Below are positions 5,460-32,127 of a DNA stretch of 32,127 nucleotides, piece after piece. Source of the DNA: a virus. Under the pieces are notes generated by a model. It saw only the letters and a program-made list of their open reading frames with translations. It did no database searches and was not told where the DNA came from. Both the position numbers and the translations under genes were made by a program. The DNA lies in IMG/VR virus record IMGVR_UViG_3300030106_002032, positions 1 through 32,127 of that record; one strand, given 5' to 3'. Position 1 is the first letter of the stretch. Every line of letters begins with the position of its first letter.

Positions 5460-6496
5460 GCTGCAAGCTCCTCTTCTCGCTGTGCCATGTATTCGGCTAC
5501 TTCTGGGGTTACTCCAGAAAGCCAACCTGTATCTGCGTCTTGGCCTGCCAGTGCAATCGCTCGGCTAAGTGCGCGAGTGCCTTGGCGGTTTGTAACAGTG
5601 CGACCCTCTGGGGTTCGTTCAGCCATGCTGCGAAGCCAAATGCCAAGGCCGCGAGCATTCACTGTGCCCCGCTTTCCATGCACCCCTTGATCTTCATAGA
5701 ATTGGTCGAGTTGAGCTATTGTCACTTGAAGAGGGGTTATTAGTGCGTGGGTTATCTCCCAGCGGTCGGTGAAGCGTACATGGCGCATCTGTCCTCCTGC
5801 GCGTTCAACCAAGGCGCGCACATGGGAGTACCACCGTGTTTTTGAGAACTGCGGTGCGGCGGCTCCGGTGGAGATGCTGCGCTCTACAAACTGCATAAGA
5901 AAGGCCAACCAGTTAGCGATTTTGCGGAATTCGGTGGTTCCGCCGTGCTGGCGAAACTCGATAGAGCCTCGACCCCCGAGCCCCATGTTCTGGACATTTA
6001 CTTTCTCGTACCGGCGGGCGTGGGACAGGTCGGCAAGGTTGGCGAGTGCGCCAAGTCGGCAGTTACCTGCCCACTGAGATTCCCCTCGGCGGCTTCTAGG
6101 CATTACTCGGTCAATCTGAGCTTGGTACGTGGCGTAACGGTCGTAGACTTTAATGACCTGTTCGGTTGTCAGGTCTCGGCCATCTAAGTGAACGTGGAGG
6201 CCGCAGCTACGGTTAACTGCAACGTCTAGCTCGTTAAGGACGCGGCAAACTTTGCGGAGAGCTTCTAAGCCTTCCTGACCGCGAAGGATTGGGCTAACAA
6301 GCTCGCCGGGGTTCCGGCCACGAAGGCTTGCGTCTGAGACAATCTTCCAATGGTTGCGGGTGGTGTGGTTGTAGCGTTCTGTACGAGCGGGCACGCCTGC
6401 TTCGCAAAGTTTCCGCGCCAATTCCATATGTGTTGCGCCGCTAGCAAATTCAATCTCAATCCCAAAAGCGCGGTCTGTAATGGTGGGTGTTGTCAT
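5456..6496 (-). CDS. Putative amidoligase (COOH-NH2 ligase, glutamine-synthetase-like fold)
   Basis: This 346-residue protein matches the putative amidoligase family. The N-terminal 'FGIEIEF' (Glu14, Glu16) provides metal ligands, 'WKIVSDASL' follows at 50-58, 'GELVSPIL' at 64-71, 'CGLHVHLD' with His101/His103 at 98-105, and 'SIEFRQHGGT' with Glu180, Arg182 and His184 at 178-187. These enzymes use ATP to join a carboxylate to an amine, often building short peptides or amide-linked tags. The C-terminal 100 residues look helical and are less conserved. It heads a two-gene minus-strand operon with the GGCT-like protein, driven by a probable promoter at 6534-6561. A GGA-type ribosome-binding site is weakly visible. 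The biological target is unknown and could be a peptide, a cell-wall component or a protein. Confidence 0.85.
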   Translation of the reverse strand: MTTPTITDRAFGIEIEFASGATHMELARKLCEAGVPARTERYNHTTRNHWKIVSDASLRGRNPGELVSPILRGQEGLEALRKVCRVLNELDVAVNRSCGLHVHLDGRDLTTEQVIKVYDRYATYQAQIDRVMPRSRRGESQWAGNCRLGALANLADLSHARRYEKVNVQNMGLGGRGSIEFRQHGGTTEFRKIANWLAFLMQFVERSISTGAAAPQFSKTRWYSHVRALVERAGGQMRHVRFTDRWEITHALITPLQVTIAQLDQFYEDQGVHGKRGTVNARGLGIWLRSMAERTPEGRTVTNRQGTRALSRAIALAGQDADTGWLSGVTPEVAEYMAQREEELAA

Positions 6497-7788: not shown

Positions 7789-8319
7789 ATGAATGTTGGC
7801 TGGAGCTATGAGTTATCCGATGACCAACGGCCCAATCCTGTGGTCCATGTTCAGCAGGTAGCGCTTCCAGAGGGGATTTTTTTCCCAACTGAGCAGTCTT
7901 TGCTTAAAGTGTTTAAGACCAATGGGTTTAAGCCGAAGGCGGGGAGGCTAAAGGCTTGGGGGCGGTCTAGGGGCGATGACGGCAAAATAAAATATAAAGA
8001 TGATCCTCACTGGATAGCAGTCAGGAATGGCACGCCTCTGCACCTTGATCCCCCTTATCCAAGGTATAGCCACCACTTAAAGGTCCGTGTTGATAATGCC
8101 TTTTTCGTCAGAGGAATTGATCAAGTGGAGCTTCCTTTGAGGAGGGGCACATTTTATGTGCTAGATACTCACAGCCCGCATCAAGTTATTAACAAGGGGA
8201 TGGTAGACGGATGGAACGTGGCGGTCTCTATTGATAGCAATTCTGTATGGGATTCAGGCAAGGCGATTAGCTGCTGCTTGGAGTTTGCGTTGAGCAATTC
8301 TTTTTACGAGGCGGCATGA
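7789..8319 (+). CDS. Double-stranded beta-helix (cupin / 2OG-Fe(II) dioxygenase-like) protein
   Basis: The ATG at 7789 gives 176 residues; a TTG at 7786 would add one. The second half has the layout of a double-stranded beta-helix oxygenase: an H-x-D iron-site motif in 'GTPLHLDPP' (His85, Asp87), strands 'HHLKVRVDN' and 'RGTFYVLDT', then a distal histidine in 'HSPHQVINKG' (His131, alternatively His128). In 2-oxoglutarate dioxygenases an Arg or Lys about ten residues after the distal His holds the cosubstrate. Here that region reads DGWNVAVSID, so the anchor is missing or comes from elsewhere (Lys136 is close). It may therefore be a hydroxylase with an altered cosubstrate site or a non-2OG cupin. 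It overlaps the IbrA-like start in an ATGA junction. Confidence 0.6.
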   Translation: MNVGWSYELSDDQRPNPVVHVQQVALPEGIFFPTEQSLLKVFKTNGFKPKAGRLKAWGRSRGDDGKIKYKDDPHWIAVRNGTPLHLDPPYPRYSHHLKVRVDNAFFVRGIDQVELPLRRGTFYVLDTHSPHQVINKGMVDGWNVAVSIDSNSVWDSGKAISCCLEFALSNSFYEAA

Positions 8320-9488
8320 AGATATTTCTAAAGGAGAATGTCTGGGATGCAGCTATAGCTAGGTTTCATCGGATTTTCGATGAGTTTGAAAATGTGGTGA
8401 TCAGTACCAGCGGGGGAAAGGATAGCGTTGTCATTATGCAGCTTGCCCTTATGGTTGCTAAGGATCGAGGCAAGCTACCGCTGAAAATGATGTTTTTGGA
8501 TCAGGAAGCAGAATATCGCATGACTATTGAGTACATGCGAAAGGCAATGTCAGATTCTCGTGTAGAACCATTGTGGATTCAGTGCCCAATTCGCCTATTC
8601 AATGCTACTTCTATGGAGCAGCCTTGGCTTAATTGCTGGGAAGAAGGCGGGGAATGGATGCGGCCCAAAGAGCAAATCGGCATCAAGGATAACGTGTTTG
8701 GCACGGATAGGTTTCACGATATTTTCCAAAAGATACTGGACTATTATTTTCCAGATAAGCCTGCCTGTTACGTTGCGGGGGTCAGGGCAGAGGAAAGCCC
8801 GACAAGGCTGGCAGGATTAACCTCTCAGCCTACTTATAAGGATATAACTTGGGGCAAGAAGCTAAACGTAAAAAAAGGCCACTTCACCTTCTACCCAATT
8901 TGGGATTGGAATCTAAGTGATGTATGGAAAGCCATCCATACTAATAAGTGGGACTACTGTGAAATCTATGACCACTTGTATAGGTACGGTATAGCCCCTA
9001 GAAACATGAGGGTTTCAAACCTGCATCACGAGACTGCGGTTCACAGCCTGTTCTTCTTGCACGAAATAGAGCCTGATACTTGGAATGCTCTAACCAAGCG
9101 GCTTGACGGGATAAATCAAGCGAAACATATGGAAAAACATGAAATGTTTGCGGTTCAGGATCTGCCTTTCATGTTCTCCTCTTGGGTGGAATATCGCGAT
9201 TATTTAACAGACCACTTGATTACCATCCCCGAAAATAGGGACAAGTTTCATAGAAAGTGGACGGCAATGGACAAAGTTTATAGTCAAATGAAGAAGCCGG
9301 AAGACCTGATAAAAAAGCAAATAGCCTCGGTATTGGTGAATGATTGGGAGTTTGTAAAGCTTGCCGGCTGGTTGAACAGTAGTCCGCTGATGATTACTTA
9401 TAGAGATTGGTTCAAGGGCAACCTAGGCAATAGGGTCAGGAAGGCAAGCAATATGATCTACATACCGGATGAGGTGACTAATGGGTGA
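8316..9488 (+). CDS. ibrA: IbrA-like PAPS-reductase-family (PP-loop, DUF3440) protein
   Basis: This 390-residue protein starts with an ATP-pyrophosphatase PP-loop: 'VVISTSGGKDSVVI', Ser32-Gly-Gly-Lys-Asp-Ser37. 'PLKMMFLDQEAEY' is the following strand, and 'CYVAGVRAEESPTRLAGL' the region that corresponds to the adenylyl-binding part of PAPS reductases. 'GKKLNVKKGHFTFYPIWDWNLSDVWKAI' and the C-terminal half match the IbrA/DUF3440 style. PP-loop enzymes activate a substrate by adenylation, often for sulfur transfer. IbrA and IbrB were described as a pair in Escherichia coli prophages as activators of immunoglobulin-binding (eib) genes, with unknown biochemistry. The next gene is an IbrB homologue with an eight-base overlap, so the classic pair is intact here inside a lytic-type gene block. 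Confidence 0.88.
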   Translation: MKIFLKENVWDAAIARFHRIFDEFENVVISTSGGKDSVVIMQLALMVAKDRGKLPLKMMFLDQEAEYRMTIEYMRKAMSDSRVEPLWIQCPIRLFNATSMEQPWLNCWEEGGEWMRPKEQIGIKDNVFGTDRFHDIFQKILDYYFPDKPACYVAGVRAEESPTRLAGLTSQPTYKDITWGKKLNVKKGHFTFYPIWDWNLSDVWKAIHTNKWDYCEIYDHLYRYGIAPRNMRVSNLHHETAVHSLFFLHEIEPDTWNALTKRLDGINQAKHMEKHEMFAVQDLPFMFSSWVEYRDYLTDHLITIPENRDKFHRKWTAMDKVYSQMKKPEDLIKKQIASVLVNDWEFVKLAGWLNSSPLMITYRDWFKGNLGNRVRKASNMIYIPDEVTNG

Positions 9489-19082: not shown

Positions 19083-22000
19083 ATGGCGACAATCGTAACC
19101 CGTTCGGGCAAAGGCTCGCCGCTAACCAATACTGAAGTTGACGCTAACTTCACAAACCTGAACAGCGATAAGTTAGAGCTTTCAGGCGGCACCATGACGG
19201 GCAACCTCGTGGTCCCAAATTTAAGCATCACGAGTACAAATTGGTTCGGGTTTGGAGATTACGGCGAAAGAATCAGCGGCTCTAACGCTGCCAGTAAGCT
19301 TTTCTTTTATACAGATGCGACGCTTGCGCTGACGCTGGAAGATACTCAGGACGCCACGTTCGCTGGAAAAATAACGGCCACAGCGGCGGGGACGAACAGC
19401 AGTCTATACGCTCTGGATTTGAGTCGATCAGGGAGTGGGAGCAGTCCTGACATATGGGCGGATAGCAATAATTTGGTTCTAGGCACAAGTGCCTCTACTG
19501 CTGTTTTAACTCTTTTGAACAGCAATGCTACGTTCGCGGGTGATGTCAGTATTCCGGTAGGAAACAAGCTGTACTTGGGTGGCGGCAGTCACACGTACAT
19601 CTCTGAAGACATTGATGACAGAGTTAGATTCTTTGCCGGAGGCACGGAATTTCTCCGGTTTACCGAAGATTCCAGCGACATAACAAATCTATACACGGAT
19701 ATGAATATTGCTGGCGGTCTCGAAATCGCTCACAGCAGCGACAACGGATTCAAAGTCACTGCAAATGATACGGTTGCTAATACCCCATTTGCAGCAATGC
19801 GCCTTGACTACAATGCGAGTGGTTCCGACACTCTTACAACTGACCGGGCGCATATCGGGCTTGAGATTGACGTAGATTCTAGCGCGTCTGGCGGAGATAC
19901 AAGTAACGAGCATCGGTTGTATGGCGTGTGGACCCACACAAAAGCTACTGGTGATTCAGACCTAGTTTATGGCGGCTATTTCCAAGGTGAAGCAGAGCAG
20001 ACGGCAGGAACAATCACCAGCGTTTTCGGTGTATATGGACGCGCCGATAGTGATCCTGCTGCCGGTACGGTTTCTAGTGCTTATGGCGTGTATGGCTACG
20101 CTCCTATCCAGAATGCTTCCGGTACAGGCGTAACAAATGCGTTCGGGGTATACGGAAAAACCCTACTTCAACAGGCAAACGTAGCAGACGTTGCTCAGCT
20201 AATTGGTGGCTACTTTGAAGTTGAGCTATCTGATCCTCTATCCGGATCAGTTGAAATCAACACGATTTATGCTGTTCGTGCCGAGATCGACAACAACGAC
20301 GAGGACACCGTACACCTCGACATTGATAACACTGAAAGCTATCTCTATTACGGCAACTACGCGGGAACGCAGCCGGGTAATGCCTACGGCGTATACATTG
20401 TTGATGATGTTCCTAGCTACTTTGGGGGAAGCGTAGGTCTAGGCACTTCCGGGCCGACCGAAACGCTTACGGTTGATGGCGATACTAACGTCACGGGTCA
20501 AATGTACATCGGACCTAACAACGCTGATCGCAGACCGTTTGCCAAGAAAAGCAACTGGGGTTATTCATCTTCCTACAAGGCTATCATTTTAGGATCTACC
20601 TCTACCGCACCGGGTACTGAGGTCGAGGGAGCCACTACGATTTCGTTTGGCTACGATCCGTCTACCAATTCTGACGGCTCTTTCAGTGGCGACGGACGAG
20701 AAATCCTTTTTCGGAACGGGCAGACGTTTGTCACCCCTAACAGTGCAAACGATGATTTTAATCAATATCACCTAGTGCTGAAGGACGGCAACGTAGGGAT
20801 AGGCGCAGCGTCACCGTCCAGCCTGCTGCATTTATCGGCAGCGGCAAGTCCTACGCTGCGAATTGTAGATACGACTAATGACTGTACGCTGTTGGCTTAT
20901 GCACAGGACAGCGAAGCAATCGTAGGAACGTACAGCAACCACAATTTAGGGCTGTTCACTAATAGTACCCGCGCAGTAACAATTGATACGTCGCAGAACG
21001 CCACGTTTGCTGGTGCCGCAACTGCTACAGCCTTAACGATTAGTGCTTCCGCTGGAAAGCTCGCTTTCGCCAATGACGCAGCTAATTACTATATCCATCA
21101 GAAAGACACCACTGATGGCATTTTGCTATCCGGTTATTACGGCGTCAGCCTAGGGCATCAGGGTGCTAAGAAATTGCAAGTTGACTCCGCGGGTGTCGAC
21201 ATCACTGGTGACGCCACGGTTTCCGGCGATGTTACTTTTGACTCTGGCAAGAAAATCGGCTTAGAACTTGTCGGTGAAGCAGAAGCCACAGTTGGTCCGG
21301 GCTGGATGACCGTTGCTGCGTATACCAGTGGGCGTCAGCACGGAGAAATCATCGTTACGGACGCCGATAGCGGAGATCATGGGTTCATCCGTATTGACTG
21401 GCTCCACTCCTACGCCGACTCAAATTTCACCGTATTAAATACGGGAGGTCACTCCAACCGCATCACGGGTTGCCGAGTTCTGTATCAAACATCAAATATT
21501 ACCTACGGAACTTACGTTCTTCAGGTGTACGTGACCGTGGAGTCCACTTACGAGGTAAGTGTTTACCACCACCACGGCACAACTGATTACGGTCAGTTCA
21601 CGGTTCAAACCCCGGTCATTGCGGACACAATCACCGGGTACGCCGTGCATGGAAATCAGATTGAGGGGCTGGATAGCTATAGCTTTGCGAGCGAAGAAGG
21701 GATTCAGGCCGGAGGGTCATGCCTGATCAACGGGAGAATGTCCCTTAAAGAAGGAGGAGAGCCGTATGCATACGGTACTCTGCTGTTAGAGGCCAATTCA
21801 TCTAGTCGTCAAATCCGCATATCGCCCCCATCAGACTCAGCGAATGGGTACATTGACTACCGAGGCGGAAACCTCCTATTCAAGGACGACGGCTCCGAGA
21901 CGATGCGGTTTGCCGGTGGGGGCAACATAGTAATAGGACACAGCACAGTTGAATCGTCCATTTGGTCAATTACCCCAAGGCTTCAGATAGAAGGGAACAA

Positions 22001-24167
22001 CGCCAGCACTTCGTCCATGTCTATTGTCAGAAACAGCGAAAATGCCAGCGGTCCTTATTTAGTACTTTCTAAAACCAGAGGCGGGGTAACAGGCACGGAG
22101 GTCATTGTTCAGGATGATGACAACCTTGGAAGCATTCGCTGGTCCGGCGCTGATGGGACAGATAGAGCGTCGCAAGCCGCTGCAATTGATTGCCTTGTAG
22201 ACGGCGCCCCCGGTACTGGCGATATGCCAGCGCGTCTAGTGTTTAGCACGACACAAGATGGCAATGAAGACCCAACTGTCGCGCTGACGCTGAACAGTTC
22301 TCAGGAAGCCACTTTTGCCAGCAAGGTTTTCGTTGGAACAAGCGAACAAATCGAGATCCAGCCTGCCGATGGTTCTGGCAATACAGCAATTCAGATTGAA
22401 GCGCTAACTGGAAAATCTGCGTACATAGATTTAGGGGGAGCTGACTCTGGGGACTACGCTGCTCGGATCATTACCGATCAGACGAACTCAACAATCCACA
22501 GCACCGGAGTGCTTCTCCTTGCGCCTGCGTCAAGCTCCGTCGATCTTCAGTATGCCAACGCGACCAAGCTTCAGACTAGCTTAAAGGGCATCACTGTTAC
22601 CGGAAGAGCAGAAGGGTTCCATCATCCCATCAATACTGATCGCAACTTCGCAATTGGTGATGGGACGGGGGATAACTTTGCGGCTGGTGCATATCGCAAT
22701 ATGCTCATCGGCTACCACGCGGGTCAAAATATTACGACTGGAGACCAAAATACCTTCATAGGCTACGACGCTGGGATCAATGCAAAAACGTCTAGTCTAT
22801 CAACGGCAGTAGGCTATCAAGCAGGAGCAGGGGTAAGTACAGGAACCGATGGAGCGGCGGCTGAGCCGTCTAGTGGAATCACTGCGGTTGGGTATAGGGC
22901 TGGGTATCAAAGTGAAGATGAAGCCGCGAACGGAACATATATAGGTAGAGAAGCTGGACACGGCATCACGACTGGTTATCAGAATACAGCCGTTGGGGCA
23001 TACGCACTTCACGATATTGCGGGAGCGCATCGAAACGCGGCTTTTGGATATATAGCAGGACAAAAATTAGACGGAAATGCGGGGTACAACACCCTTTTAG
23101 GCGGCTATGTAATGAGTACCGCCACGGAATCATCTAACTGTGTGGCTGTAGGCTACCTCGCATTAAGGGGACACACCACAAGTACCCCCGGTACGGGAGA
23201 TAATAACGTCGCCATCGGCCAGCAGGCGATGTACTACTACACGACAGGCCAGCATAACGTATCCGTTGGACATCACTCTGGGTTCAACCTGACCACCGGA
23301 AGTCATAACGTCTTCATGGGCTATTACGCTGGCAACGACATGCTGCGAGCGAGCAATAACATAGCCATTGGCTCAGTCGCACTAGATGAAGCTCAGTATG
23401 ACCATTCTAATGTCGCCGTTGGTTATGGCACTTTAACCCATCAGCGGGTTTACGCAGATCATGCCTCTCAGGATCACACCTATAACGTAGCCGTTGGACA
23501 TGAAGCTGGGTACGAACTAACCACTGGCGTCTATAACACGTTTCTTGGGGCTAAATCTGGGAACCATATTGAGGGAGGTACTAATAATACCCTCTTAGGG
23601 TGGGGCGCTGGGAATGACTTAACGAGCGGTGATTACAATATCTGCATTGGTCGCAGCACTATCGGGGGAGCTGCTGACAGTCATTATCGCTTCACAATTG
23701 GATACAACATCAGTTGTAGCGAAGATAGTCAGGTAACGATTGGTAGAGACGGCGCAGTTATCCGCAATGAGTTTGATACTGACGCGGCTTGGACTCAATC
23801 ATCTGATGTCAGGAAAAAAAGAAACATTCAGACCGACACTCTGGGCTTAGATTTTATAAATGAACTGCGCCCGGTAACCTTCCAGTGGAAGCCCTCCAAT
23901 GAGCATCCTAAGTCTTTAGAGTCTTACTCTGAAACAAACACCATGAATCTTGATGCGACGATACATGGATTGATAGCTCAAGAAGTCAAAGAGGCTATGG
24001 ATAAGGTGGGCGCTCCCACAACCTTTTCTGGGTGGAAAGAAGACCCAGATGGTAGCCAATCCATAAGCCGAGAAATGATGGTTACTCCTTTAATAAACGC
24101 AGTGAAGGAACTGTCAAGTTTAGTAAAGACTTTGCAGGCGGAAGTTGAGGAGCTGAAGAAAAAATGA
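19083..24167 (+). CDS. Giant fiber with YadA-like head repeats and S74 self-cleaving chaperone
   Basis: This 1694-residue fiber opens with the common phage-fiber start 'LTNTEVDANFTNLNSDKLELSGGTMTGNL'. A long beta-structured shaft follows, with 'FGVYG' repeats near residues 318-360. Residues about 1205-1535 are a YadA-head-like region of short repeats ('NTFIGYDAG', 'NVAVGYGTL', 'NVAIGQQAM'). The last about 120 residues are a Peptidase_S74 chaperone domain starting 'SSDVRKKRNI' (Ser1573-Ser1574-Asp1575), with 'GLIAQEVKEAMDKV' further on. In the endosialidase family this domain helps trimerisation and then cuts itself off just before a serine in such an S-D-x-R-x-K motif. It overlaps the next gene by four bases. 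It probably forms a trimeric host-binding fiber, but its site on the virion is uncertain (see findings). Confidence 0.9.
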   Translation: MATIVTRSGKGSPLTNTEVDANFTNLNSDKLELSGGTMTGNLVVPNLSITSTNWFGFGDYGERISGSNAASKLFFYTDATLALTLEDTQDATFAGKITATAAGTNSSLYALDLSRSGSGSSPDIWADSNNLVLGTSASTAVLTLLNSNATFAGDVSIPVGNKLYLGGGSHTYISEDIDDRVRFFAGGTEFLRFTEDSSDITNLYTDMNIAGGLEIAHSSDNGFKVTANDTVANTPFAAMRLDYNASGSDTLTTDRAHIGLEIDVDSSASGGDTSNEHRLYGVWTHTKATGDSDLVYGGYFQGEAEQTAGTITSVFGVYGRADSDPAAGTVSSAYGVYGYAPIQNASGTGVTNAFGVYGKTLLQQANVADVAQLIGGYFEVELSDPLSGSVEINTIYAVRAEIDNNDEDTVHLDIDNTESYLYYGNYAGTQPGNAYGVYIVDDVPSYFGGSVGLGTSGPTETLTVDGDTNVTGQMYIGPNNADRRPFAKKSNWGYSSSYKAIILGSTSTAPGTEVEGATTISFGYDPSTNSDGSFSGDGREILFRNGQTFVTPNSANDDFNQYHLVLKDGNVGIGAASPSSLLHLSAAASPTLRIVDTTNDCTLLAYAQDSEAIVGTYSNHNLGLFTNSTRAVTIDTSQNATFAGAATATALTISASAGKLAFANDAANYYIHQKDTTDGILLSGYYGVSLGHQGAKKLQVDSAGVDITGDATVSGDVTFDSGKKIGLELVGEAEATVGPGWMTVAAYTSGRQHGEIIVTDADSGDHGFIRIDWLHSYADSNFTVLNTGGHSNRITGCRVLYQTSNITYGTYVLQVYVTVESTYEVSVYHHHGTTDYGQFTVQTPVIADTITGYAVHGNQIEGLDSYSFASEEGIQAGGSCLINGRMSLKEGGEPYAYGTLLLEANSSSRQIRISPPSDSANGYIDYRGGNLLFKDDGSETMRFAGGGNIVIGHSTVESSIWSITPRLQIEGNNASTSSMSIVRNSENASGPYLVLSKTRGGVTGTEVIVQDDDNLGSIRWSGADGTDRASQAAAIDCLVDGAPGTGDMPARLVFSTTQDGNEDPTVALTLNSSQEATFASKVFVGTSEQIEIQPADGSGNTAIQIEALTGKSAYIDLGGADSGDYAARIITDQTNSTIHSTGVLLLAPASSSVDLQYANATKLQTSLKGITVTGRAEGFHHPINTDRNFAIGDGTGDNFAAGAYRNMLIGYHAGQNITTGDQNTFIGYDAGINAKTSSLSTAVGYQAGAGVSTGTDGAAAEPSSGITAVGYRAGYQSEDEAANGTYIGREAGHGITTGYQNTAVGAYALHDIAGAHRNAAFGYIAGQKLDGNAGYNTLLGGYVMSTATESSNCVAVGYLALRGHTTSTPGTGDNNVAIGQQAMYYYTTGQHNVSVGHHSGFNLTTGSHNVFMGYYAGNDMLRASNNIAIGSVALDEAQYDHSNVAVGYGTLTHQRVYADHASQDHTYNVAVGHEAGYELTTGVYNTFLGAKSGNHIEGGTNNTLLGWGAGNDLTSGDYNICIGRSTIGGAADSHYRFTIGYNISCSEDSQVTIGRDGAVIRNEFDTDAAWTQSSDVRKKRNIQTDTLGLDFINELRPVTFQWKPSNEHPKSLESYSETNTMNLDATIHGLIAQEVKEAMDKVGAPTTFSGWKEDPDGSQSISREMMVTPLINAVKELSSLVKTLQAEVEELKKK

Positions 24168-24514
24168 GCGAAGTAACCAATTTGGATGTTAGGTTTTTGG
24201 ACGCAGTATCTGCCGGGGTGACGACAGATGTTGCGGAAAGAGTTCACCACCTAGCCGGTAATGGAGAATGGCAGGAAGATCAAGAGATTGAGGCGCAAGT
24301 ATCAAAAGAGGAAGGAATCACTCGCGCTCAGTTAAAGATATTGCGTAACTGGCAGCTTCCTATGGAAGTAGAAGAGCGCAAAGAACTTCTCACCAATACG
24401 ATTAATAGAGTCAATCGCATTATTTCAGCAGGCAAGTCAGGCTGGACGAGCGAGCAGATAACCTCAGTAAACGCAATCGTTGCTAAGTCTCAGGCTTACT
24501 CGGATAGTTTGTAG
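24164..24514 (+). CDS. Hypothetical fiber-linked protein
   Basis: This 116-residue acidic, mostly helical protein ('DQEIEAQVSKEEGITRAQLKILRNW', 'EERKELLTNTINRVNRII') starts within the stop of the fiber gene (ATGA), so it is translated with it. It has no membrane segment or recognisable motif. A fiber-assembly chaperone or minor structural part is suggested only by position. Confidence 0.55.
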   Translation: MSEVTNLDVRFLDAVSAGVTTDVAERVHHLAGNGEWQEDQEIEAQVSKEEGITRAQLKILRNWQLPMEVEERKELLTNTINRVNRIISAGKSGWTSEQITSVNAIVAKSQAYSDSL

Positions 24515-24525
24515 GAAGGAATAAC

Positions 24526-24846
24526 ATGAGTGTGATTAGCTGGAACATTGAAAGCCTTGAATACACAAACGACGCGGATCAGGTGGTTACGCGAGCGCAT
24601 TGGCGATGTTCTGTCTCAGAAGAGGTTGGCGAAACGCTCTACACCGCAGCCGATAGCCGTGCCGTTTTTCTTGACGAGATAAAAGCTGATGCGTCTGGGT
24701 TTATCGCTTACAGCGATTTGACTGAAGCAAAATGTTTAGATTGGATCTGGGCGAAAACCGATAAGGCGAAAGTTGAAACGGCCCTTAAAGAAGATATTGC
24801 GAAGCAGCGCAACCCTCCACTGAAATCTGGTAGGCCGTGGTCGTAG
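24526..24846 (+). CDS. DUF7936-like phage protein
   Basis: This 106-residue protein begins 'MSVISWNIESLEYTN' and has 'TRAHWRCSVSEE', 'SGFIAYSDLTEAKCLDWIWAKT' and a C-terminal 'RNPPLKSGRPWS'. This plan is typical of the small DUF7936-type proteins that accompany fibers in many marine and T7-like phages. The role is unknown. A GGAAGGA ribosome-binding site precedes the ATG. It closes the fiber block, and a 73-base gap with an imperfect hairpin follows. Confidence 0.65.
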   Translation: MSVISWNIESLEYTNDADQVVTRAHWRCSVSEEVGETLYTAADSRAVFLDEIKADASGFIAYSDLTEAKCLDWIWAKTDKAKVETALKEDIAKQRNPPLKSGRPWS

Positions 24847-24851
24847 ATAAT

Positions 24852-24883
24852 CCCGATAAGGGTTAAAAATGCCCCTCATCGGG
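24852..24883. other. Imperfect hairpin between fiber and neck modules
   Basis: CCCGAT (24852-24857) pairs with ATCGGG (24878-24883), and AGGG with CCCT inside. No T run follows closely (TGATAGAATGTTGATTTTT). It may be a weak terminator, a processing site or a regulator site at the border of the fiber block. This is read by eye only. Confidence 0.35.
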
Positions 24884-24919
24884 TGATAGAATGTTGATTT
24901 TTGGGAGCAGGTAACGGTT

Positions 24920-25237
24920 ATGGCGGACATAGAGTCAATTGCGAAGGTTGGTGAGGATGTAGAGATTGAGCTGGAAAAAGGTGAGGCCAAGGCTGATCCG
25001 GTCTTTGTTTTTGAAGACAAAGATGAAGGTGTACGAAAGACTTACAAATTGTCAGCGTTGAGTTTGAAAGCAAGATTGAGCATCATGCGTATCAATGAGC
25101 TAGAAGAGCGTCGCATGAGGATTGAGCTAGACCTTGAGGATGCCGTGGCGGCGGTAAACAATAGGCGCGGCTCATTAAAGCAAGCGCTGCCATCTGACAG
25201 TGACGCAGTGATAGAGCCGCTAGACCCGAGGCATTAG
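24920..25237 (+). CDS. Hypothetical protein before the connector
   Basis: This 105-residue acidic protein has beta-like 'VGEDVEIELEKGEAKADPVFVFED' and helical 'ALSLKARLSIMRINELEERRMRIELDLEDAVAAV' parts. A GGAGCAGG-type ribosome-binding site precedes it, and its stop touches the start of the connector gene. No family was recognised. It lies where small neck or head proteins sit in this phage type. Confidence 0.55.
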   Translation: MADIESIAKVGEDVEIELEKGEAKADPVFVFEDKDEGVRKTYKLSALSLKARLSIMRINELEERRMRIELDLEDAVAAVNNRRGSLKQALPSDSDAVIEPLDPRH

Positions 25238-25903
25238 ATGGCCGGTTTATCTGTACAGACGGCTCCAACGGTTGAGCCATTATCCCCGAGGGAGGTAAAG
25301 GATTACCTACGCCTACCCGTAGATGATGACTTATCAACTATTAATATCTTGCAGAAAGCAGCGCGAGAGTACGCCGAGAATTTTCTCGGTAGGGCGCTGC
25401 TGACGCAGACGTTGGACCTGTACGTTGATGTGGCGGACCCAGACGGCAACCCTTTACGTGAAGGGCTAACCACCGGGCCTTACATATCGACTCTGTACAA
25501 TTACATCACCCTGCCAAAGCCGCCGGTTCAGTCCGTGACCAGCGTTATCACGTACAACGATAGCGACACGGCCACAACCTTCGCGGCAAGCAAGTATTAC
25601 GTGGACACGGCAAGAGAGCCATCCCGAATAACGCTGAGAACAGGTGAAACATTCCCTACGGCGCTTAGGGTGGCGAATGCTATTAGGGTCACGTATGTAG
25701 CGGGTTATGCGAACCCGGCATCAGTGCCAGAGCCTATCAAGCTGGGCTTACTTCAGCACATTGCTTATCTGTACGAGCATCGCGGCGACATGTATGAGGC
25801 AGGGGGCTTCCCTCCCGCCGTCAAAAGCCTTTACAGCCCATATGTAATTCATAGCGGGCTTGGCGGGCAGACGTTGCTGGAACGCGGTAGAGCGGTCCTC
25901 TAG
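25238..25903 (+). CDS. Head-tail connector protein, HK97 gp6-like
   Basis: This 221-residue protein shows 'LSPREVKDYLRLPVDDDLSTINILQKAAREYAENFLGRALLTQTLDLYVD' at the N-terminus, the classic gp6-like connector start. 'VRVTYVAGY'-type strands ('AIRVTYVAGYAN') and a final helix 'IKLGLLQHIAYLYEHRGD' follow. It forms the ring below the portal. The TAGATG junction couples it to the previous gene. Head closure, gp10-like and tail terminator genes follow in order. Confidence 0.9.
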   Translation: MAGLSVQTAPTVEPLSPREVKDYLRLPVDDDLSTINILQKAAREYAENFLGRALLTQTLDLYVDVADPDGNPLREGLTTGPYISTLYNYITLPKPPVQSVTSVITYNDSDTATTFAASKYYVDTAREPSRITLRTGETFPTALRVANAIRVTYVAGYANPASVPEPIKLGLLQHIAYLYEHRGDMYEAGGFPPAVKSLYSPYVIHSGLGGQTLLERGRAVL

Positions 25904-25912
25904 GGGCTTGTC

Positions 25913-26236
25913 ATGCGTATAGGGTCCATGCGCCACGAAATAGAAGTGCAGGCCATGACGCTAACCACAGATGCGGGTGGTGGGGCCGGCCAGAGTTTCG
26001 CGACTACCAGAAAGATGTATGCGGACATCCGCCCCACTAGGGGGTCAGAGGCTGTTCGGCAGGGCAAGCTCCAGACAGAAATAGGGCATCAGATCACGGT
26101 CAGGTATCACAGCTTCATAACCAACCGGCACAAGGTTCTGTTTGACGGGCGCAGCTTCAATATAAACTACATCGAGAATGTAGATGAGCGGGACCGCTTC
26201 ATGATCCTCCACTGCGAGGAGAATGTGGCCGTATGA
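25913..26236 (+). CDS. Head closure protein, SPP1 gp16-like
   Basis: This 107-residue beta-barrel protein reads 'RIGSMRHEIEVQ', 'GGAGQSFATTRKMYADIRPTRGSEAVRQGK', 'QITVRYHS' and 'KVLFDGRSFNINYIENVDERDRFMIL'. This is the pattern of phage head-tail joining/closure proteins (gp16/gpFII-like), which plug the connector after packaging. A second ATG at 25928 is possible. Its stop overlaps the next start in an ATGA junction. Confidence 0.88.
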   Translation: MRIGSMRHEIEVQAMTLTTDAGGGAGQSFATTRKMYADIRPTRGSEAVRQGKLQTEIGHQITVRYHSFITNRHKVLFDGRSFNINYIENVDERDRFMILHCEENVAV

Positions 26237-26679
26237 GCAAGGATAAGGGAAAGGTTAAGGGAGGAGAAAAGCTTCACAAGCGCTTTGAGAAGATAAAGCG
26301 AGACGCCCTGAAGGAGCTTAAATTTAGTATTGGCAGATCAGTTCTGTTGGTTCAAAGCACCGCAGTCCAAAGCATTCAAGCCGGCGGCATGGGCGAAGTG
26401 GTAGTGCGATATAACCCCACGCGGACTCACTCGGCATCTGCCCCCGGCGATCCTCCTGCTACCGACACGGGGCACCTAGTTGCGAATATATCGACTAGGG
26501 TCAAGGTGGATGGGGATGACGTGGTTGGGGAGGTCATATCTTCAGCGGCCTATAGTAAGGCGCTAGAGTATGGGTACGCGCCTAACAACCTAGAGCCTCG
26601 TCCGTTTATGCGCCCTGCGCTGATGGAGAACAAGCAAAAAATTGAAAGCATCATAAGATCAGGGGACTTCGTTAGATGA
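26233..26679 (+). CDS. HK97 gp10-like neck/tail completion protein
   Basis: This 148-residue protein has a basic helical start ('KLHKRFEKIKRDALKELK'), then 'HSASAPGDPPATDTGHLVANI' and 'YSKALEYGYAPNNLEPRPFMRPAL'. This is the characteristic gp10-like signature (A-P-G-x-P-P-x-x-D-T-G, E-x-G ... R-P-F-x-x-P). It acts at the head-tail junction. It overlaps its neighbours at both ends. Confidence 0.88.
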   Translation: MSKDKGKVKGGEKLHKRFEKIKRDALKELKFSIGRSVLLVQSTAVQSIQAGGMGEVVVRYNPTRTHSASAPGDPPATDTGHLVANISTRVKVDGDDVVGEVISSAAYSKALEYGYAPNNLEPRPFMRPALMENKQKIESIIRSGDFVR

Positions 26680-27083
26680 GCCTCGGGAATTTTGCTTTAC
26701 AGTCAAGAATCTACTCAACCCTCAACGGCGACAGTAACCTGACCAGTACGTTAGGGGCCGGGGTCTTTGATGAGGTTCCACAGAATCAAGCTTATCCGTT
26801 TGTAAAGATTGGAGAGTTTTCTTCAGTTGATTACGGGACCAAGGATGTAGACGGCAATGAGGCTACGGTTCAGATAGACATTTACTCCCGGTATCGCGGG
26901 TCTAAACAGGTCCACGATATAATGGACAGGATTCACACCCTCTTACATAATGCATCACTGACGGTGAGCGGGTATAACCTTATAAATATCCGGTTTGAGT
27001 TCTCTGATATAGTCAGAGACGCGGATGGTATAACGCGGCAAGGCGTGATGCGTTTTAGGGCCGCGATACTAGGCACAAGCTAG
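26676..27083 (+). CDS. Tail terminator / completion protein (DUF3168)
   Basis: This 135-residue protein matches the DUF3168 pattern: 'LQSRIYSTLNGDSNLTSTLGAGVFDEVPQNQAYPFVKIGE', 'ATVQIDIYSRYRGSKQVHDIMDRIHTLLHN', and a C-terminal 'QGVMRFRAAI'. These proteins cap the tail tube and join it to the head. It sits between gp10-like and tail tube genes, as expected. Confidence 0.88.
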   Translation: MSLGNFALQSRIYSTLNGDSNLTSTLGAGVFDEVPQNQAYPFVKIGEFSSVDYGTKDVDGNEATVQIDIYSRYRGSKQVHDIMDRIHTLLHNASLTVSGYNLINIRFEFSDIVRDADGITRQGVMRFRAAILGTS

Positions 27084-27097
27084 GGAGAGAGATCCAC

Positions 27098-27505
27098 ATG
27101 GCAGCACAAAAAGGAGCAGCGATGCTGCTCAAAATCAACACGACGGGTTCTACCTATGTGACGGTTGCTGGATTGCGTTCTACTTCCATAACCCTCAACG
27201 ATGAAGCTGTAGATGTCACCCATAAGGGTTCCGCGGGGAATAGAACTTTGTTGGCAGACGGCGGCATTCATTCAATGTCGATGTCGGGTTCAGGCGTCTT
27301 CACGGACGACGCAGTAGAAGAAACGCTGAGAGCAGCAATGAATGCTACAGCTTTCAAGAGCTTCCAGATATTGATTCCTGACTTTGCAACATATACGGGT
27401 ACGTTTATGGTTACCTCTTTAGAGTACTCGGGAGAGTATAATGGAGAGGTCACATACTCTGTGTCTTTGGAAAGCTCTGGCGCGATAACATACGCATCAG
27501 TCTGA
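27098..27505 (+). CDS. Major tail tube protein, TP901-1-like
   Basis: This 135-residue tube protein has 'AAQKGAAMLLKINTTGSTYVTVAGLRSTSITLNDEAVDVTHK' and 'SMSGSGVFTDDAVEETLRAAM', then 'SFQILIPDFATYTGTFMVTSLEYSGEYNGEVTYSVSLESSG'. That is the normal beta-barrel subunit with a C-terminal strand. A GGGAGAGAG ribosome-binding site fits its high expression. It stacks in hexamer rings around the tape measure. Confidence 0.9.
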   Translation: MAAQKGAAMLLKINTTGSTYVTVAGLRSTSITLNDEAVDVTHKGSAGNRTLLADGGIHSMSMSGSGVFTDDAVEETLRAAMNATAFKSFQILIPDFATYTGTFMVTSLEYSGEYNGEVTYSVSLESSGAITYASV

Positions 27506-27513
27506 GTTAGCTT

Positions 27514-27753
27514 GTGGCTTGGAAGCAGATAACAGTTAAGCTCGGGTCAAAGGAGTATGAGGCGTTCTCTCGCGCCCATGAAATCCAAGTGCATGGACAG
27601 CAGGGCAAGCTCAAGCCCGCCAAGTCCATCTCCGTAGAGGGCGAAAACTACCCCATTCTGGGGTGGGAAGAGGATGACCGTGATGATATTATTACAGTCA
27701 CCTTAAAGCCTGACGCTGGAGATAATGGAGATGCCGAATCTACTGAGGGGTGA
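27514..27753 (+). CDS. Small hypothetical protein of the tail operon
   Basis: This 79-residue protein starts at GTG (GTGGCTTGG). It looks beta-rich ('QITVKLGSKEYEAFSRAH', 'SISVEGENYPILGWEEDDRDDIITVTL') with an acidic tail. It lies between tail tube and chaperone genes and overlaps the latter by 29 bases. The function is not recognised. A minor tail or chaperone-linked role fits. Confidence 0.55.
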   Translation: MAWKQITVKLGSKEYEAFSRAHEIQVHGQQGKLKPAKSISVEGENYPILGWEEDDRDDIITVTLKPDAGDNGDAESTEG

Positions 27754-28069
27754 AACCGAAATCACCCTCGGCAGTGACACCTACACTTGCCGCCTTACCC
27801 TAGACGCTCTTATGAAGATAGAGGCCGCTACGGGGATTGGCATCATCAAGATGGCGACCCTGATGGGCGAGGGCGACATAAGCCTTAGCCACATCGTGAC
27901 CATATTGCATCTAGCTTTGCGGGGCGGGGGCAATGATGTCAACCAAAAAGACACCACCAACCTAATAGAATCATCTGGTATTGTTTCGGCCACCGCCGCA
28001 GTGGCGGAACTGTTAACTAGCACTCTTACGGACTCATCGGAAGATACCGAAAAAAAGCCGGAAGAGTAG
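27725..28069 (+). CDS. Tail assembly chaperone, upstream (G-like, GTA gp10-type) part
   Basis: This 114-residue protein matches the GTA-gp10-type tail chaperone pattern: 'GSDTYTCRLTLDALMKIEAATGIGIIKMATLMGEGDISLSHIVTILHLALRGGG' and an acidic, Thr/Ser-rich tail. It binds the tape measure while the tail is assembled. Near its 3' end lies the slippery heptamer A AAA AAG (28051-28057) in the correct frame. A -1 shift there would fuse 111 residues of this protein to the downstream chaperone domain (73 more, total 184). TGGAG precedes the ATG at 27725. Confidence 0.82.
   Translation: MEMPNLLRGETEITLGSDTYTCRLTLDALMKIEAATGIGIIKMATLMGEGDISLSHIVTILHLALRGGGNDVNQKDTTNLIESSGIVSATAAVAELLTSTLTDSSEDTEKKPEE
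28051..28057 (+). other. Programmed -1 frameshift slippery site A AAA AAG
   Basis: The zero-frame codons GAA-AAA-AAG give the canonical heptamer A AAA AAG, the sequence used in dnaX. The -1 frame is open from here without stops through 28278 and contains the second chaperone domain, while the zero frame ends at TAG (28067-28069), 12 bases later. The short GC-rich repeat GCCGGACGGC downstream (28077-28086) could add a stimulatory structure. Confidence 0.8.
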
Positions 28070-28074
28070 GGGAG

Positions 28075-28278
28075 TTGCCGGACGGCCTGCCTTTTGCGAG
28101 GTGGATGGAAATTTGCCTCGGCATGGTTGGTGTCAGCCCATCGGAATTCTGGGATTCTTCTCCTCAAGAGATATACTTGACCGTGAGTGGGTTTATTGAA
28201 TTCAACTCAAGCGGTGACAACTCAGCCCCTCTTGAAAGGGGCGAGCTTGAGGAACTTATGGAGTTATATCCAGACTGA
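28075..28278 (+). CDS. Tail assembly chaperone, downstream (T-like, GTA gp10.1-type) part
   Basis: The -1 frame encodes 'PFARWMEICLGMVGVSPSEFWDSSPQEIYLTVSGF', the W/LG-x-x-P-x-x-FW pattern of the small Phage_TAC_6/DUF2376 chaperone. As a separate gene it would need a TTG start at 28075 with the Shine-Dalgarno-like AGGGGAG immediately adjacent (too close). It is therefore more likely made as a -1 frameshift fusion, with the extension starting at 28057. Its stop overlaps the tape measure start (TGATG). Confidence 0.82.
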   Translation: MPDGLPFARWMEICLGMVGVSPSEFWDSSPQEIYLTVSGFIEFNSSGDNSAPLERGELEELMELYPD

Positions 28279-30089
28279 TGGCTACCGTTGACGAGCTAAT
28301 TGTTGAGATAAGGGCCGAGACTAAAGAGTTAAGGCAAGGGCTTGATGACGTTAATCGTCAACTGAAAGGTGCCACAGGAGCCGCCAACAAGTCCCTGATC
28401 TCCTTTAGCAATCTGGCAAAGGTGTTCGCCGCTGTAGGTGTTGCCGCTGCCGGGGCCAACATGGTCAAAACGATCCGCGAGTTTGAGGATCTTGGGGCCA
28501 TTCTCAAGGCGGTTACTGGAAGCGCCAAGGCGGCTGGCGTTTCAATGGAGGTCATTGAGCGCTTTACTGCGGGAACTACCTTCCAACTTAATGATGTGAC
28601 TCAGGCATTTACTACCTTGGTGAATGCTGGGATTACGCCCACCACTGATGTCTTGACGGATTTCGGTAATGTTTCTGCCGCTTTTGGTAAAGACATCACC
28701 ACTATGGCGCAGGCCGCATTCAATGCGACCACTGGCGAGATGGAGATGCTGAAGCAGTTTGGCATCATCGCAAAGGTTGAAGGCGACAAGCTGGCTGTAA
28801 CCTTCGACAACACAACCACGAAGATAGACCGAAACTCTACAGCCATCGTTGATTTCATCCGCAAGGTTGGGCGGGAGAAGTTCCCCACGGCCCTAGAGGA
28901 TAGCGCCAACACCCTTTCAGGGAAAATATCTAACCTGCAAGACGCTACGGCCATGTTCTACAAGGAGATAGGCGAGGCGGGGTTGCGCCAAGCTCTGACT
29001 GACTTCGCCGGGACTTTCTTGGATATGTCACAGAATTCAGCTAACACGGCGCAAGTAATCGGCAGGACGCTGACTGTTGCCGTTCGCGGGCTCAACCGGG
29101 TTGTGATTCTTATCAATGAGAATTTGCGTGAGCTTCTGGGTGCCATTGTGCTTCTTGCCTCTGTGGCGACCATTTCAGCCATTTCTAAGCTGGGGATGGC
29201 ATTCGTCACTCTTGCGAGGTCTGTTGGGATAGCTAGAGCCGCGATGGTTTTGCTCAACGCCAGCATGAAAAAAAGCGTTTTCGTGGGTGGTGCGCTTATA
29301 ATTGCGTACTTTACGGGGGGGCTAGAAAAGCTCGGGGAGATGGCAGAAAAGGCCGCTGATGTAGTGGGGGATCTGCTTGGTGATGTGTTTGGTGATGGGA
29401 CAGAGGGAACGGATGAACTTACTCAGTCTATTGAGGAGTTAAATGCAGAACTAGAAACCCTAGTAGGCGGAAGTGAAAAGGTTCCCGATCTTGCCAAAGG
29501 CACTCAAACGGTCGCTGAATCATGGGAGGCGATGAGAGATTCTATAAGCTCAACCACTCAAGCCTTTACTTTTGATTTGGTTAACGCGCTGATGGAAAGC
29601 GGTGATGCATTAGAGGCGTTTAGAAGCCTATCGCAGAATATAGTATCCCAGATAATCGGCACCTTCCTTCAGATGGCTATAGTCAACCGAATACTCAATC
29701 ATGTGTTTGGTGGGTTTGCGGGATGGAATGATTTGGCGACGATTGGTGGTGGGGGAGGCGGTGGCGGGGGAGGCGGCGGGACTGTTGCCATAAATCCGTC
29801 CATGGGAACCCCGGATGGCATTCTGAATTCGGGGAATTATATAACTGGGAAATTGGCGAAAGTACCTGCCCCAGAGTCATTTATTAGTCCCCAAGTGGCC
29901 CCTAAAATAAAGTCTAGAGAGGCTCCTGTAGTAATCAATCAGAGCGTTAACTTCTCCACTGGTGTGGTGCCTACGGTAAGGGCGGAAGTGACAAGAATGC
30001 TTCCTCAAATATCAGAGGTGACAAAAGCCTCTGTTCTGGAGGCGGCATCAAGAGGGGGTTCATTTCAAAGGGGGCTAGTAGGTGGCTAA
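28278..30089 (+). CDS. Tail tape measure protein
   Basis: This 603-residue protein has the features of a tape measure. An N-terminal coiled coil ('ELIVEIRAETKELRQGLDDVNRQL') is followed by a phage-tape conserved region ('FEDLGAILKAVTGSAKAAGVSMEVIERFTAGTTFQLNDVTQAF'). Two hydrophobic segments lie near 285-315 and 333-350, and there is a C-terminal globular part. A run of about 12 glycines lies near 490-501. Using about 1.5 Angstrom per residue, the tail would be about 90 nm. It follows the chaperones directly, as in most siphophages. Confidence 0.92.
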   Translation: MATVDELIVEIRAETKELRQGLDDVNRQLKGATGAANKSLISFSNLAKVFAAVGVAAAGANMVKTIREFEDLGAILKAVTGSAKAAGVSMEVIERFTAGTTFQLNDVTQAFTTLVNAGITPTTDVLTDFGNVSAAFGKDITTMAQAAFNATTGEMEMLKQFGIIAKVEGDKLAVTFDNTTTKIDRNSTAIVDFIRKVGREKFPTALEDSANTLSGKISNLQDATAMFYKEIGEAGLRQALTDFAGTFLDMSQNSANTAQVIGRTLTVAVRGLNRVVILINENLRELLGAIVLLASVATISAISKLGMAFVTLARSVGIARAAMVLLNASMKKSVFVGGALIIAYFTGGLEKLGEMAEKAADVVGDLLGDVFGDGTEGTDELTQSIEELNAELETLVGGSEKVPDLAKGTQTVAESWEAMRDSISSTTQAFTFDLVNALMESGDALEAFRSLSQNIVSQIIGTFLQMAIVNRILNHVFGGFAGWNDLATIGGGGGGGGGGGGTVAINPSMGTPDGILNSGNYITGKLAKVPAPESFISPQVAPKIKSREAPVVINQSVNFSTGVVPTVRAEVTRMLPQISEVTKASVLEAASRGGSFQRGLVGG

Positions 30090-30978
30090 AGCAATAGCTA
30101 TTCCGACGACGCCGGGGTTTGTTCGCTCTTCTATGCGGTTAATCAATACCGTATCCGCTACCACATCTCCGTTCAGCGGCAAGACGCGGACACAGCAATT
30201 TGATTATGTTGCGTGGCAGATGGATCTGGCGCTTCCTCCTATGAAGCAAGCACAGGCCGCAGCGTGGCAATCTTTCTTTCTAAAGCTAAACGGCCCTGAG
30301 AATTATTTTTTTCTAGCGGACCCAGATAGAGCGGCCCCCTTGGGCACGTACAATGGAAACTATCTGCTCTCTGACGTAAACACCGCAAGATACCCATATG
30401 ACGTAGATGTCACGCTGAGCTTTGATGGCTCCAACAACAAAATAACGGCCAACGAAAATAGGTTTACTAACGCAGAAGTTGGCGATTTCTTTTTCGTGAC
30501 CGGGGCGGTTAATGACGCGAACAATGGGACTCACAAAATCTTGTCAAAAGATGGGAACGCGGCGGCAGTGGTTGATTCCAACCTAGTGACTGAATCAAAT
30601 ACAGCAAATTGCAAGACCTTAACAAATCAAAAGGGGTCAACTGGCCTGACTTTGATTGGTGAGGAAAACAAGAGCGGGACAATAAAGACCGGAGATTGGT
30701 TGTCTATACGCAATACCGGAGGCGTGGAACAGTTAGTGATGGCGACCGAGGACGCGACCGTTACAACGCAAACGGATAACTATGATCATTATTCTGTGGC
30801 TATACAGCCAAGACTTCGGAGTACTTTGGCTAATAACGGCAGCGTTGGGTTTAGGAATGACGGAGATCGCACGGATGAGTACAACGTGGGGCAGTGGCGT
30901 CTCACTAGCGAGGTAACTTGGGATACGGACAGGCTTGGCCTGTACTCTCTGGCGTTTACTTGTCAGGAGTTCACGTAG
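30082..30978 (+). CDS. Distal-tail-type protein
   Basis: This 298-residue protein starts at GTG (30082) with AAAGGGGG upstream, overlapping the tape measure end. It reads 'SPFSGKTRTQQFDYVAWQMDLALPPMKQAQAAAWQSFFLKLNGPENYFFLADP' at the N-terminus. A beta-rich inserted region (about 105-215) comes next, then 'YSVAIQPRLRSTLANNGSVGF' and 'GQWRLTSEVTWDTDRLGLYSLAFTCQEF'. This two-part plan is common for the tail protein just after the tape measure in GTA-like tails and probably forms the distal tail ring. Confidence 0.75.
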   Translation: MAKAIAIPTTPGFVRSSMRLINTVSATTSPFSGKTRTQQFDYVAWQMDLALPPMKQAQAAAWQSFFLKLNGPENYFFLADPDRAAPLGTYNGNYLLSDVNTARYPYDVDVTLSFDGSNNKITANENRFTNAEVGDFFFVTGAVNDANNGTHKILSKDGNAAAVVDSNLVTESNTANCKTLTNQKGSTGLTLIGEENKSGTIKTGDWLSIRNTGGVEQLVMATEDATVTTQTDNYDHYSVAIQPRLRSTLANNGSVGFRNDGDRTDEYNVGQWRLTSEVTWDTDRLGLYSLAFTCQEFT

Positions 30979-31635
30979 ATGGCAACCCGGCTAGATTCTG
31001 ACAGTGGGATTCAGAACAAAACAGTAGCCGAGACCAGACTTGACGCTGACCAGCACAATTATCTGTTCTTCGCTATCAAGGCAGAGTTTGACACTGACAC
31101 CTTGCGCTTCAGCACCTTGGCGGGTGACTGCACTATAGGTGGAGAAAGCTACCTAGGGGCGGGCCAGCTTATTAACGTCTCAGACATAAGAGACAGTGCA
31201 GAACTAAAAAGCGAAGGAATGGTTGTTACCCTTACGGGGCTGGATTCTTCTATCCTAAGCATGGGCTTGACTGAGCATTATCAAAACAGACCCATCACGA
31301 TGCTCACTTGTTTTGCAGACGGCGGCGGGGATTCAGTAGGCGCGGCAATGACCAGCTTCAAGGGCCGAATGATGGCGATGGCCTTGAATGAAGACCCCAC
31401 AGGGGTAAGCACCATCACCATTTCGTGCGAAAACAGACTTGTTGACCTGAGACGCCCCAGCAACTTGCGATATACAAAGGAATCGCAGAAGTACATTGAT
31501 GACAATGACATAGGGTTCAATCAGGTAACTAGCTTGCAGGATATGGTGATTACTTGGGGCAGGCTACGCGCCCTGATAACTAATCTGCAAACGTCTATAG
31601 ATGGCGACGTATCGAGCTTTGCGGGCGGGCCTTAA
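30979..31635 (+). CDS. DUF2163-like tail-tip protein
   Basis: This 218-residue protein has 'HNYLFFAIKAEFDTDTLRFSTLAGDCTIGGESYLGAGQLINVSDIRDSAELKSEGMVVTLTGLDSSIL', then 'ALNEDPTGVSTITISCENRLVDLRRPSNLRYTKESQKYI' and 'FNQVTSLQDMVITWG'. This matches the phage DUF2163/GTA gp13-type hub protein. It starts immediately after the distal-tail gene and is followed by a DUF6950-like gene, the usual order. Confidence 0.82.
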   Translation: MATRLDSDSGIQNKTVAETRLDADQHNYLFFAIKAEFDTDTLRFSTLAGDCTIGGESYLGAGQLINVSDIRDSAELKSEGMVVTLTGLDSSILSMGLTEHYQNRPITMLTCFADGGGDSVGAAMTSFKGRMMAMALNEDPTGVSTITISCENRLVDLRRPSNLRYTKESQKYIDDNDIGFNQVTSLQDMVITWGRLRALITNLQTSIDGDVSSFAGGP

Positions 31636-32065
31636 ATTGGTTCACAAGCTCCCGCATTGGCAGGATCGCCTCCACGCTTTCTTTTCTGAGAACAAAGACC
31701 GGGATTTTGTCTGGGGTGAGTGGGACTGCGTAGTTATGGCAAGCATGGCCGTGGAAGCCATGACCGGGCATGACATATTAAAGTCTCAGGGCTTGAGTTG
31801 GACTAGTGAGTTAAGCGCATACAAGGCCATCAAGCAGTATGGTGAAAACCTAGAAGGGGCGGCGGCTAAGGCTTTGGCTTTAGAAGGGTTCAAAGAAATA
31901 CCTGTCTCATATGTTACGGCTGGCGATGTGGTTTTGTTCTTGCCTCAGAATGAGCTAATTACCGGAGTGGGTGATGGGGCTAGGATTCTCAGCCCTGCCC
32001 TAGACGGTTATAGTTTCAACATGCCTAGCACTGTCCGAAGGGCGTGGAGAATTCCTGATGGCTGA
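31601..32065 (+). CDS. DUF6950-like tail-tip protein
   Basis: This 154-residue protein shows 'HWQDRLHAFFSENKDRDFVWGEWDCVVMASMAVEAMTGHDI' (with a conserved-type W-G-x-x-D-C), then 'ALEGFKEIPVSYVTAGDVVLF' and 'GDGARILSP'. It resembles the DUF6950 or NlpC/P60-like tail-tip proteins placed before the tail-fiber/host-specificity gene. The full catalytic triad is not clear, so enzymatic activity is unproven. It overlaps the previous gene by 35 bases. Confidence 0.75.
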   Translation: MATYRALRAGLKLVHKLPHWQDRLHAFFSENKDRDFVWGEWDCVVMASMAVEAMTGHDILKSQGLSWTSELSAYKAIKQYGENLEGAAAKALALEGFKEIPVSYVTAGDVVLFLPQNELITGVGDGARILSPALDGYSFNMPSTVRRAWRIPDG

Positions 32066-32127
32066 AGGTATAAAGAACGTAATCAAGGCCGTTGCAATTA
32101 CTGCCGTGGTAATCGTTACGGCGGGGG
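32058..32127 (+). CDS. Start of a further tail gene (cut by the window edge)
   Basis: An ATG at 32058 overlaps the stop of the DUF6950-like gene and begins an open frame of at least 23 residues that runs off the window. It has a short basic part ('AEGIKNVIK') and then a hydrophobic run ('AVAITAVVIVTAG'). A tail-tip or host-specificity protein is expected by position, and only its N-terminus is visible. Confidence 0.55.
   Translation, partial: MAEGIKNVIKAVAITAVVIVTAG

Follow-up and report, generated by a model that had tools for sequence, protein, structure and literature searches.

Does this virus translate the second domain of its tail assembly chaperone as a separate protein, or is that domain joined to the first by programmed −1 ribosomal frameshifting? 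The DNA analyzed here, which we call the window, spans the 32,127 bases of an IMG/VR virus record, and in it a putative chaperone pair is flanked by the major tail protein gene on its 5′ side and the tape measure gene on its 3′ side. In tail assembly chaperones of the G/GT kind the fusion is made at a few percent, and both products are absent from the virion. Frameshifting tail chaperones in general are already widely described; Xu, Hendrix and Duda reportedly dealt in 2004 with tail assembly chaperones that frameshift, lambda gpG/gpGT among them. The features that bear on the question are as follows.

27098 to 27505, plus strand: major tail (tube) protein, PF06199 Phage_tail_2 (Pfam E 1.3e-38, 132.5 bits against a cut-off of 23.8)
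27514 to 27753, plus strand: small ORF of 79 aa with a GTG start, between the tail tube and chaperone genes, without a Pfam match
27718 to 27721, plus strand: GGAG, an inferred ribosome-binding-like site, 9 bases before ATG 27731 and 3 before ATG 27725
27725 to 28069, plus strand: chaperone ORF in frame 0, PF11836 Phage_TAC_11 (GTA-gp10; Pfam E 6.7e-16, 58.6 bits against a cut-off of 27.8)
28038 to 28043, plus strand: CGGAAG, a degenerate counterpart of the Shine-Dalgarno-like stretch of relatives, weak here and enriched at the family level
28051 to 28057, plus strand: slippery heptamer A AAA AAG in the X XXY YYZ register, in the frame of ORF 27725-28069
28057 to 28278, plus strand: −1 frame part of 73 residues, the C-terminal half of the predicted fusion, PF09550 Phage_TAC_6 (E 2.1e-8)
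28067 to 28069, plus strand: frame-0 stop TAG, separated from the heptamer by 9 bases
28075 to 28077, plus strand: TTG, the only possible start (ATG, GTG or TTG) of the −1 part before its core, with AGGGGAG abutting it without a spacer
28278 to 30089, plus strand: tape measure protein, named from its position, with PF20155 TMP_3 (E 1.1e-7, 32.3 bits) under the cut-off of 41

The 3′ end of ORF 27725-28069 reads GAA AAA AAG CCG GAA GAG TAG, and the heptamer is therefore read in the right frame, as originally predicted from the bare sequence. The −1 frame starting at 28057 reads AGRVGELPDGLPFARW... and ends at TGA 28276-28278, which shares one base with the ATG of the tape measure ORF. That this frame stays open to 28278 and encodes a second chaperone domain was also correctly foreseen (PF09550 at 34.9 bits against a cut-off of 23.4), as was the assignment of both domains to the GTA gp10/gp10.1 type, with PF11836 and PF09550 each over the curated Pfam cut-off. 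The heptamer alone is weak evidence, since the window contains 12 copies of AAAAAAG where 5.8 are expected.

Under programmed frameshifting, most ribosomes would end at TAG 28067 and yield a short protein of about 112 to 114 residues, while in a minority the tRNA-Lys on AAA AAG would slip back one base, the −1 frame would be read to 28278, and a minor fusion of about 182 to 184 residues would result. By analogy with lambda gpG/gpGT, the N-terminal domain shared by both products would coat the tape measure protein, and recruitment of tail tube subunits would fall to the fusion's C-terminal domain. The heptamer, the frames, the domain families, the gene order and their conservation are seen directly, whereas the slip itself, its rate and this division of labor are inferred. 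In lambda, according to PMC5009743, ribosomes slip by −1 at low frequency close to where the first gene ends, giving a short major and a long minor product. The window has in common with that account the position between tail tube and tape measure, the layout of the −1 slip, and a predicted short and long product; unlike lambda, its domains are PF11836 and PF09550, and the likeness is one of layout.

The two ranges of length reflect two candidate starts. The original prediction gave 114 and 184 residues, and the count from 27725 does agree with it (111 codons plus 73 codons for the product reached via the slip, 184 in all), but the start itself probably lies elsewhere. The N terminus of relatives has the form M(T/A)N..(K/R)GE and aligns with ATG 27731 of the window, and the commonest start, found in 36/58 viral clusters, is an ATG five residues ahead of the (K/R)GE motif. 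Because both this motif and the spacing of GGAG favor ATG 27731, we regard it as probably the true start, with products of 112 and 182 residues.

Many viral relatives have ORFs similar to the one at 27514-27753 (phmmer; best relative E 1.2e-10), and the tape measure ORF likewise has many relatives in viral contigs. Megablast of 22001-32127 and tblastn of either chaperone half against phage records gave no match, tblastn against plasmids gave one weak match, and no relative emerged when viral contigs were scanned with just the short chaperone protein. Neither an Rfam nor a tRNA scan of the window returned a match. A gene transfer agent as a whole consists of domesticated particle genes without phage replication genes. 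The window departs from that composition, being a virus record with a toprim/DnaB-type ORF at 2766-4439 that we read as a primase-helicase. Elsewhere in the window, the sole Pfam match of a 1,694-residue ORF at 19083-24167 is a C-terminal Peptidase_S74 (endosialidase chaperone) domain, and this ORF sits between capsid and neck genes, not at the end of the tail genes; 8316-9488 and 5456-6496 (minus strand) encode a PAPS-reductase-like protein with DUF3440 and a putative amidoligase.

Conservation of the arrangement was examined in viral contigs scanned with the tape measure protein (best 80 of 158 loci) and the tail tube protein (best 80 of 386 loci). These 160 loci and the window gave 161 sources, 155 of them with the first part, 152 with both, 3 with the first only and 6 with neither; match positions and locus ends indicate that the 9 sources lacking a complete pair are contig or locus ends. 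The 152 complete sources represent 104 distinct viral regions, window included, which form 58 clusters at 80% identity. Within this sample (best 80 of 158 and best 80 of 386 loci), the second part lies in the −1 frame in 101/104 regions, every one of which (101/101) has an in-phase slippery heptamer, and the same holds at the cluster level, where the −1 relation is found in 55/58 and the heptamer in 55/55 of these. The alignment of relatives proposed as a check on the original prediction thus came out in its favor. Across the 58 clusters, 66 in-phase heptamers occur in 782 overlap codons versus 23 in 5,973 gene-body codons (about 3 expected), and the other two phases of the overlap hold 17 and 10.

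The identity of these heptamers bears on two ways in which the A run at 28050-28056 could mislead. Viral regions mostly have AAAAAAG, GGGAAAG, GGGAAAC or AAAAAAA, and the first triplet is GGG in 37 and AAA in 18 of the 55 slip clusters. At least 8 swaps between AAA and GGG are seen on the tree, and the encoded residues change along with them; therefore it is slipperiness that has been kept, not an amino acid. Seven consecutive A in the window could let RNA polymerase, rather than the ribosome, slip and produce a mixed mRNA encoding the fusion, but the GGGAAA-type heptamers of 37/55 clusters contain no long single-base run, and we consider this origin of the fusion very improbable. It is nearly inconceivable that one gene has been split by a mistake in base calling or assembly at the A run. 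The sequence comes from IMG/VR, and single-base runs invite such errors, yet the −1 relation is repeated in 101/104 distinct regions, most of them without an A run. Homopolymer error and polymerase slippage were both rejected because most relatives use GGGAAA heptamers.

Under independent initiation, TTG 28075 would be coupled to termination at the stop upstream of it, and the second domain would be made only as a separate protein. This TTG precedes the core in the right frame and follows the purine-rich AGGGGAG, and separate starts do occur in one viral clade and in most pairs of the Paracoccus family; AGGGGAG, however, touches the TTG with zero spacer, and it was rightly anticipated that the second domain's only start of its own would be poorly placed. 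Judged from its sequence, the second domain has no efficient start in the window; ATG 28105 falls within the domain itself. The relatives point the same way. No ATG, GTG or TTG whatever precedes the second core in 39/55 slip clusters, TTG is the only candidate in 10/55 (window included) and ATG or GTG is available in 6/55, while the nearest relatives, L002 and L004, retain AAAAAAG with only GTG on offer (plus TTG in L004). We therefore hold separate translation from the TTG to be improbable, and consider it very probable that A AAA AAG directs a programmed −1 shift of the ribosome, which yields a minor two-domain chaperone fusion beside a major short chaperone.

The pattern that would have spoken against this reading, a heptamer not kept together with an independent start, is found in only 3/58 clusters (L006, L010 and L027), which lack the −1 relation and the heptamer and have an ATG for the second part in 3/3. 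They form one clade with support of 100/98, nested among slip users under a midpoint root, a placement that is not a proof of change from slip to separate start. A +1 or −2 frameshift in these three was considered and rejected, as all have an ATG near the stop of the first gene and belong to one clade. L010 has a short A run.

Sequences flanking the heptamer were examined for possible stimulators of slippage. A Shine-Dalgarno-like stretch lies 5 to 12 bases upstream of the heptamer in 34/55 clusters versus 21.2 ± 3.3 under synonymous codon resampling (300 draws, the largest count being 30), and anti-Shine-Dalgarno pairing energy peaks upstream of the slip (mean −6.67 versus −5.58 ± 0.37 kcal/mol resampled), much of this peak arising because acidic residues are encoded there. 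The window's own pairing is an unexceptional −3.5 kcal/mol. A strong upstream stimulator in the window was thus rejected, given its weak match and a family signal that comes partly from acidic residues. Downstream RNA structure was unsupported as a stimulator, with a mean z of −0.97 versus −0.70 in control stretches and −1.1 in the window.

Naming the first domain calls for some care, as the Pfam text for PF11836 reads "Phage tail tube protein, GTA-gp10" and yet the family name is TAC. An AlphaFold2 model of the short protein, built from an alignment of 52 viral and 3 chromosomal sequences (55 in all), has a mean pLDDT of 83. Neither the sequence nor the fold of the short protein had a meaningful match in the PDB. 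The model matches 8 predicted viral proteins at E 0.001 or better, one being a named tail assembly chaperone with a TM-score of 0.68 by query length; the 190-residue protein of RcapNL is also among the fold matches (E 0.013). The model thus resembles predicted phage tail assembly chaperones, and we read the PF11836 part as a chaperone because of its position, these fold matches and the recoding.

The same two Pfam families, in identical order, make up the alphaproteobacterial GTA gp10/gp10.1-type pair, whose name goes back to gene transfer agents. Chromosomal pairs were compared with the window. When bacterial genomes were scanned with the tail tube alignment, 11 loci came up, every one titled as Alphaproteobacteria or as a genus or family of that class, and PF09550 searches covered the class of Paracoccus genome G003 (385 genomes sampled, 45 with a match) and its family (61 sampled, 44 with a match). 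There remained 92 pairs after duplicates, 5 loci without a usable pair, and L220 and L241, whose implausible geometry also kept them out of the tree, had been dropped. Slip sites were counted with Y as A or T only, which left out the AAACCCT sites at L189, L198, L278 and L279; these lie in slip phase by the stop of the first gene, at loci with no A/T-type heptamer, and are possibly a further slip site.

By this count, pairs from the tail tube scan divide into 6 slip and 4 start, and those from the class sample into 18 slip, 17 start and 5 neither. Paracoccus-family pairs, unlike the window, have a separate start in 41/42 and a slip site in 1/42, whereas other alphaproteobacteria are mixed. The label "GTA type" should therefore be used with caution, since in the Paracoccus family sampled the two genes of such a pair almost always start separately. 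Overall, 19 of the 92 pairs have the slip site only, 6 both, 62 the start only and 5 neither, and the heptamer is in phase in 25 of the 73 pairs with the −1 relation versus 0 and 1 in the remaining two phases. The second part has a start codon in 6/25 slip pairs versus 62/67 others (Fisher p 2e-10, a value that looks somewhat better than it should, as related genomes are counted as if independent and many start users come from the family sample), which suggests that slip site and start codon tend to exclude each other in chromosomal pairs. CCCTTTY recurs in the alphaproteobacteria, where it coincides with the PF of the PFPW-like motif that opens the second domain. In four Zavarzinia loci (L167, L169, L170 and L171), slip site and overlapping start coexist, CCCTTTG or CCCTTTA directly preceding TGA to give GTGA or ATGA.

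Judged by the neighboring PF09931 and GTA_TIM, the chromosomal pairs belong to GTA-type tail clusters. Among the slip genomes checked, PF09931 lies within about 2 kb of the pair in 8/11, and GTA_TIM shares the contig at a distance of up to about 8 kb in 7/11; both are on the same contig in 3/3 start genomes checked. The slip or start state changes 8 times on a tree of 150 pairs, a rough count because that tree is quick and has long branches.

Named phages add a third arrangement. Eleven records were found by tail tube similarity and 8 examined. In 5 of the 8 the −1 relation comes with an in-phase heptamer, in 2 it comes with TTG only and no A/T-type heptamer, and in one, Rhodobacter phage RcapNL, the ORF is continuous. 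RcapNL gp16 (L277:2229-2801) has both domains after the tail tube gene as in the window, the second recognized by our own HMM (E 7e-7) and not by Pfam; unlike the window, it is one uninterrupted 190-residue ORF in which a slip is not needed. Oceanospirillum phage vB_OliS_GJ44 and Desulfofustis phage LS06-2018-MD02 have the window's domain pair by our own HMMs, in the −1 relation, with in-phase AAAAAAG or GGGAAAC like the window, and their records give two separate genes with no annotated frameshift. Indeed, all named-phage records with two frames list separate CDS and none annotates a frameshift, and the fusion protein is missing from 5/8 records because slip pairs are annotated as two separate genes.

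Among published descriptions, Caulobacter phage phiCbK has gp93/gp94 (JX100813) with an annotated programmed −1 frameshift at AAAAAAC (PMC3556154). It shares with the window a −1 slip site before the tape measure gene; in phiCbK the C-terminal part is PF23812 Phage_TAC_18 and the N-terminal part has no significant match. The portion of PMC8601537 consulted implies signs of tail chaperone frameshifting in most of the R. capsulatus phages it covers and names no families there, and in the RcGTA structure paper (PMC7296036) the words "chaperone" and "gp10" are absent from the main text. Within the open-access literature, where absence is weak evidence, we found no description of a frameshift in the GTA gp10/gp10.1-type pair and no report of switching between slip and start in GTA-type pairs.

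For the window itself this changes little: it is a well-supported predicted −1 frameshift of an already known kind, one more among many in tail chaperones. Annotation gains more, as the predicted fusion proteins are absent from 5 of the 8 phage records examined. The less ordinary part is the switching among slip site, separate start and continuous ORF, which merits a specialist's second look. We lean, by a narrow balance, toward recoding of the GTA-type pair being switchable, with the −1 fusion common outside the Paracoccus family and exchanged several times for a second start and once for a continuous ORF. If this is true, some lineages would build tails without needing the covalent fusion, and programmed frameshifting would be in use in GTA clusters too, often at CCCTTTY. 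That one pair occurs in slip, start and continuous-ORF form offers a natural test of whether the chaperone halves must be joined.
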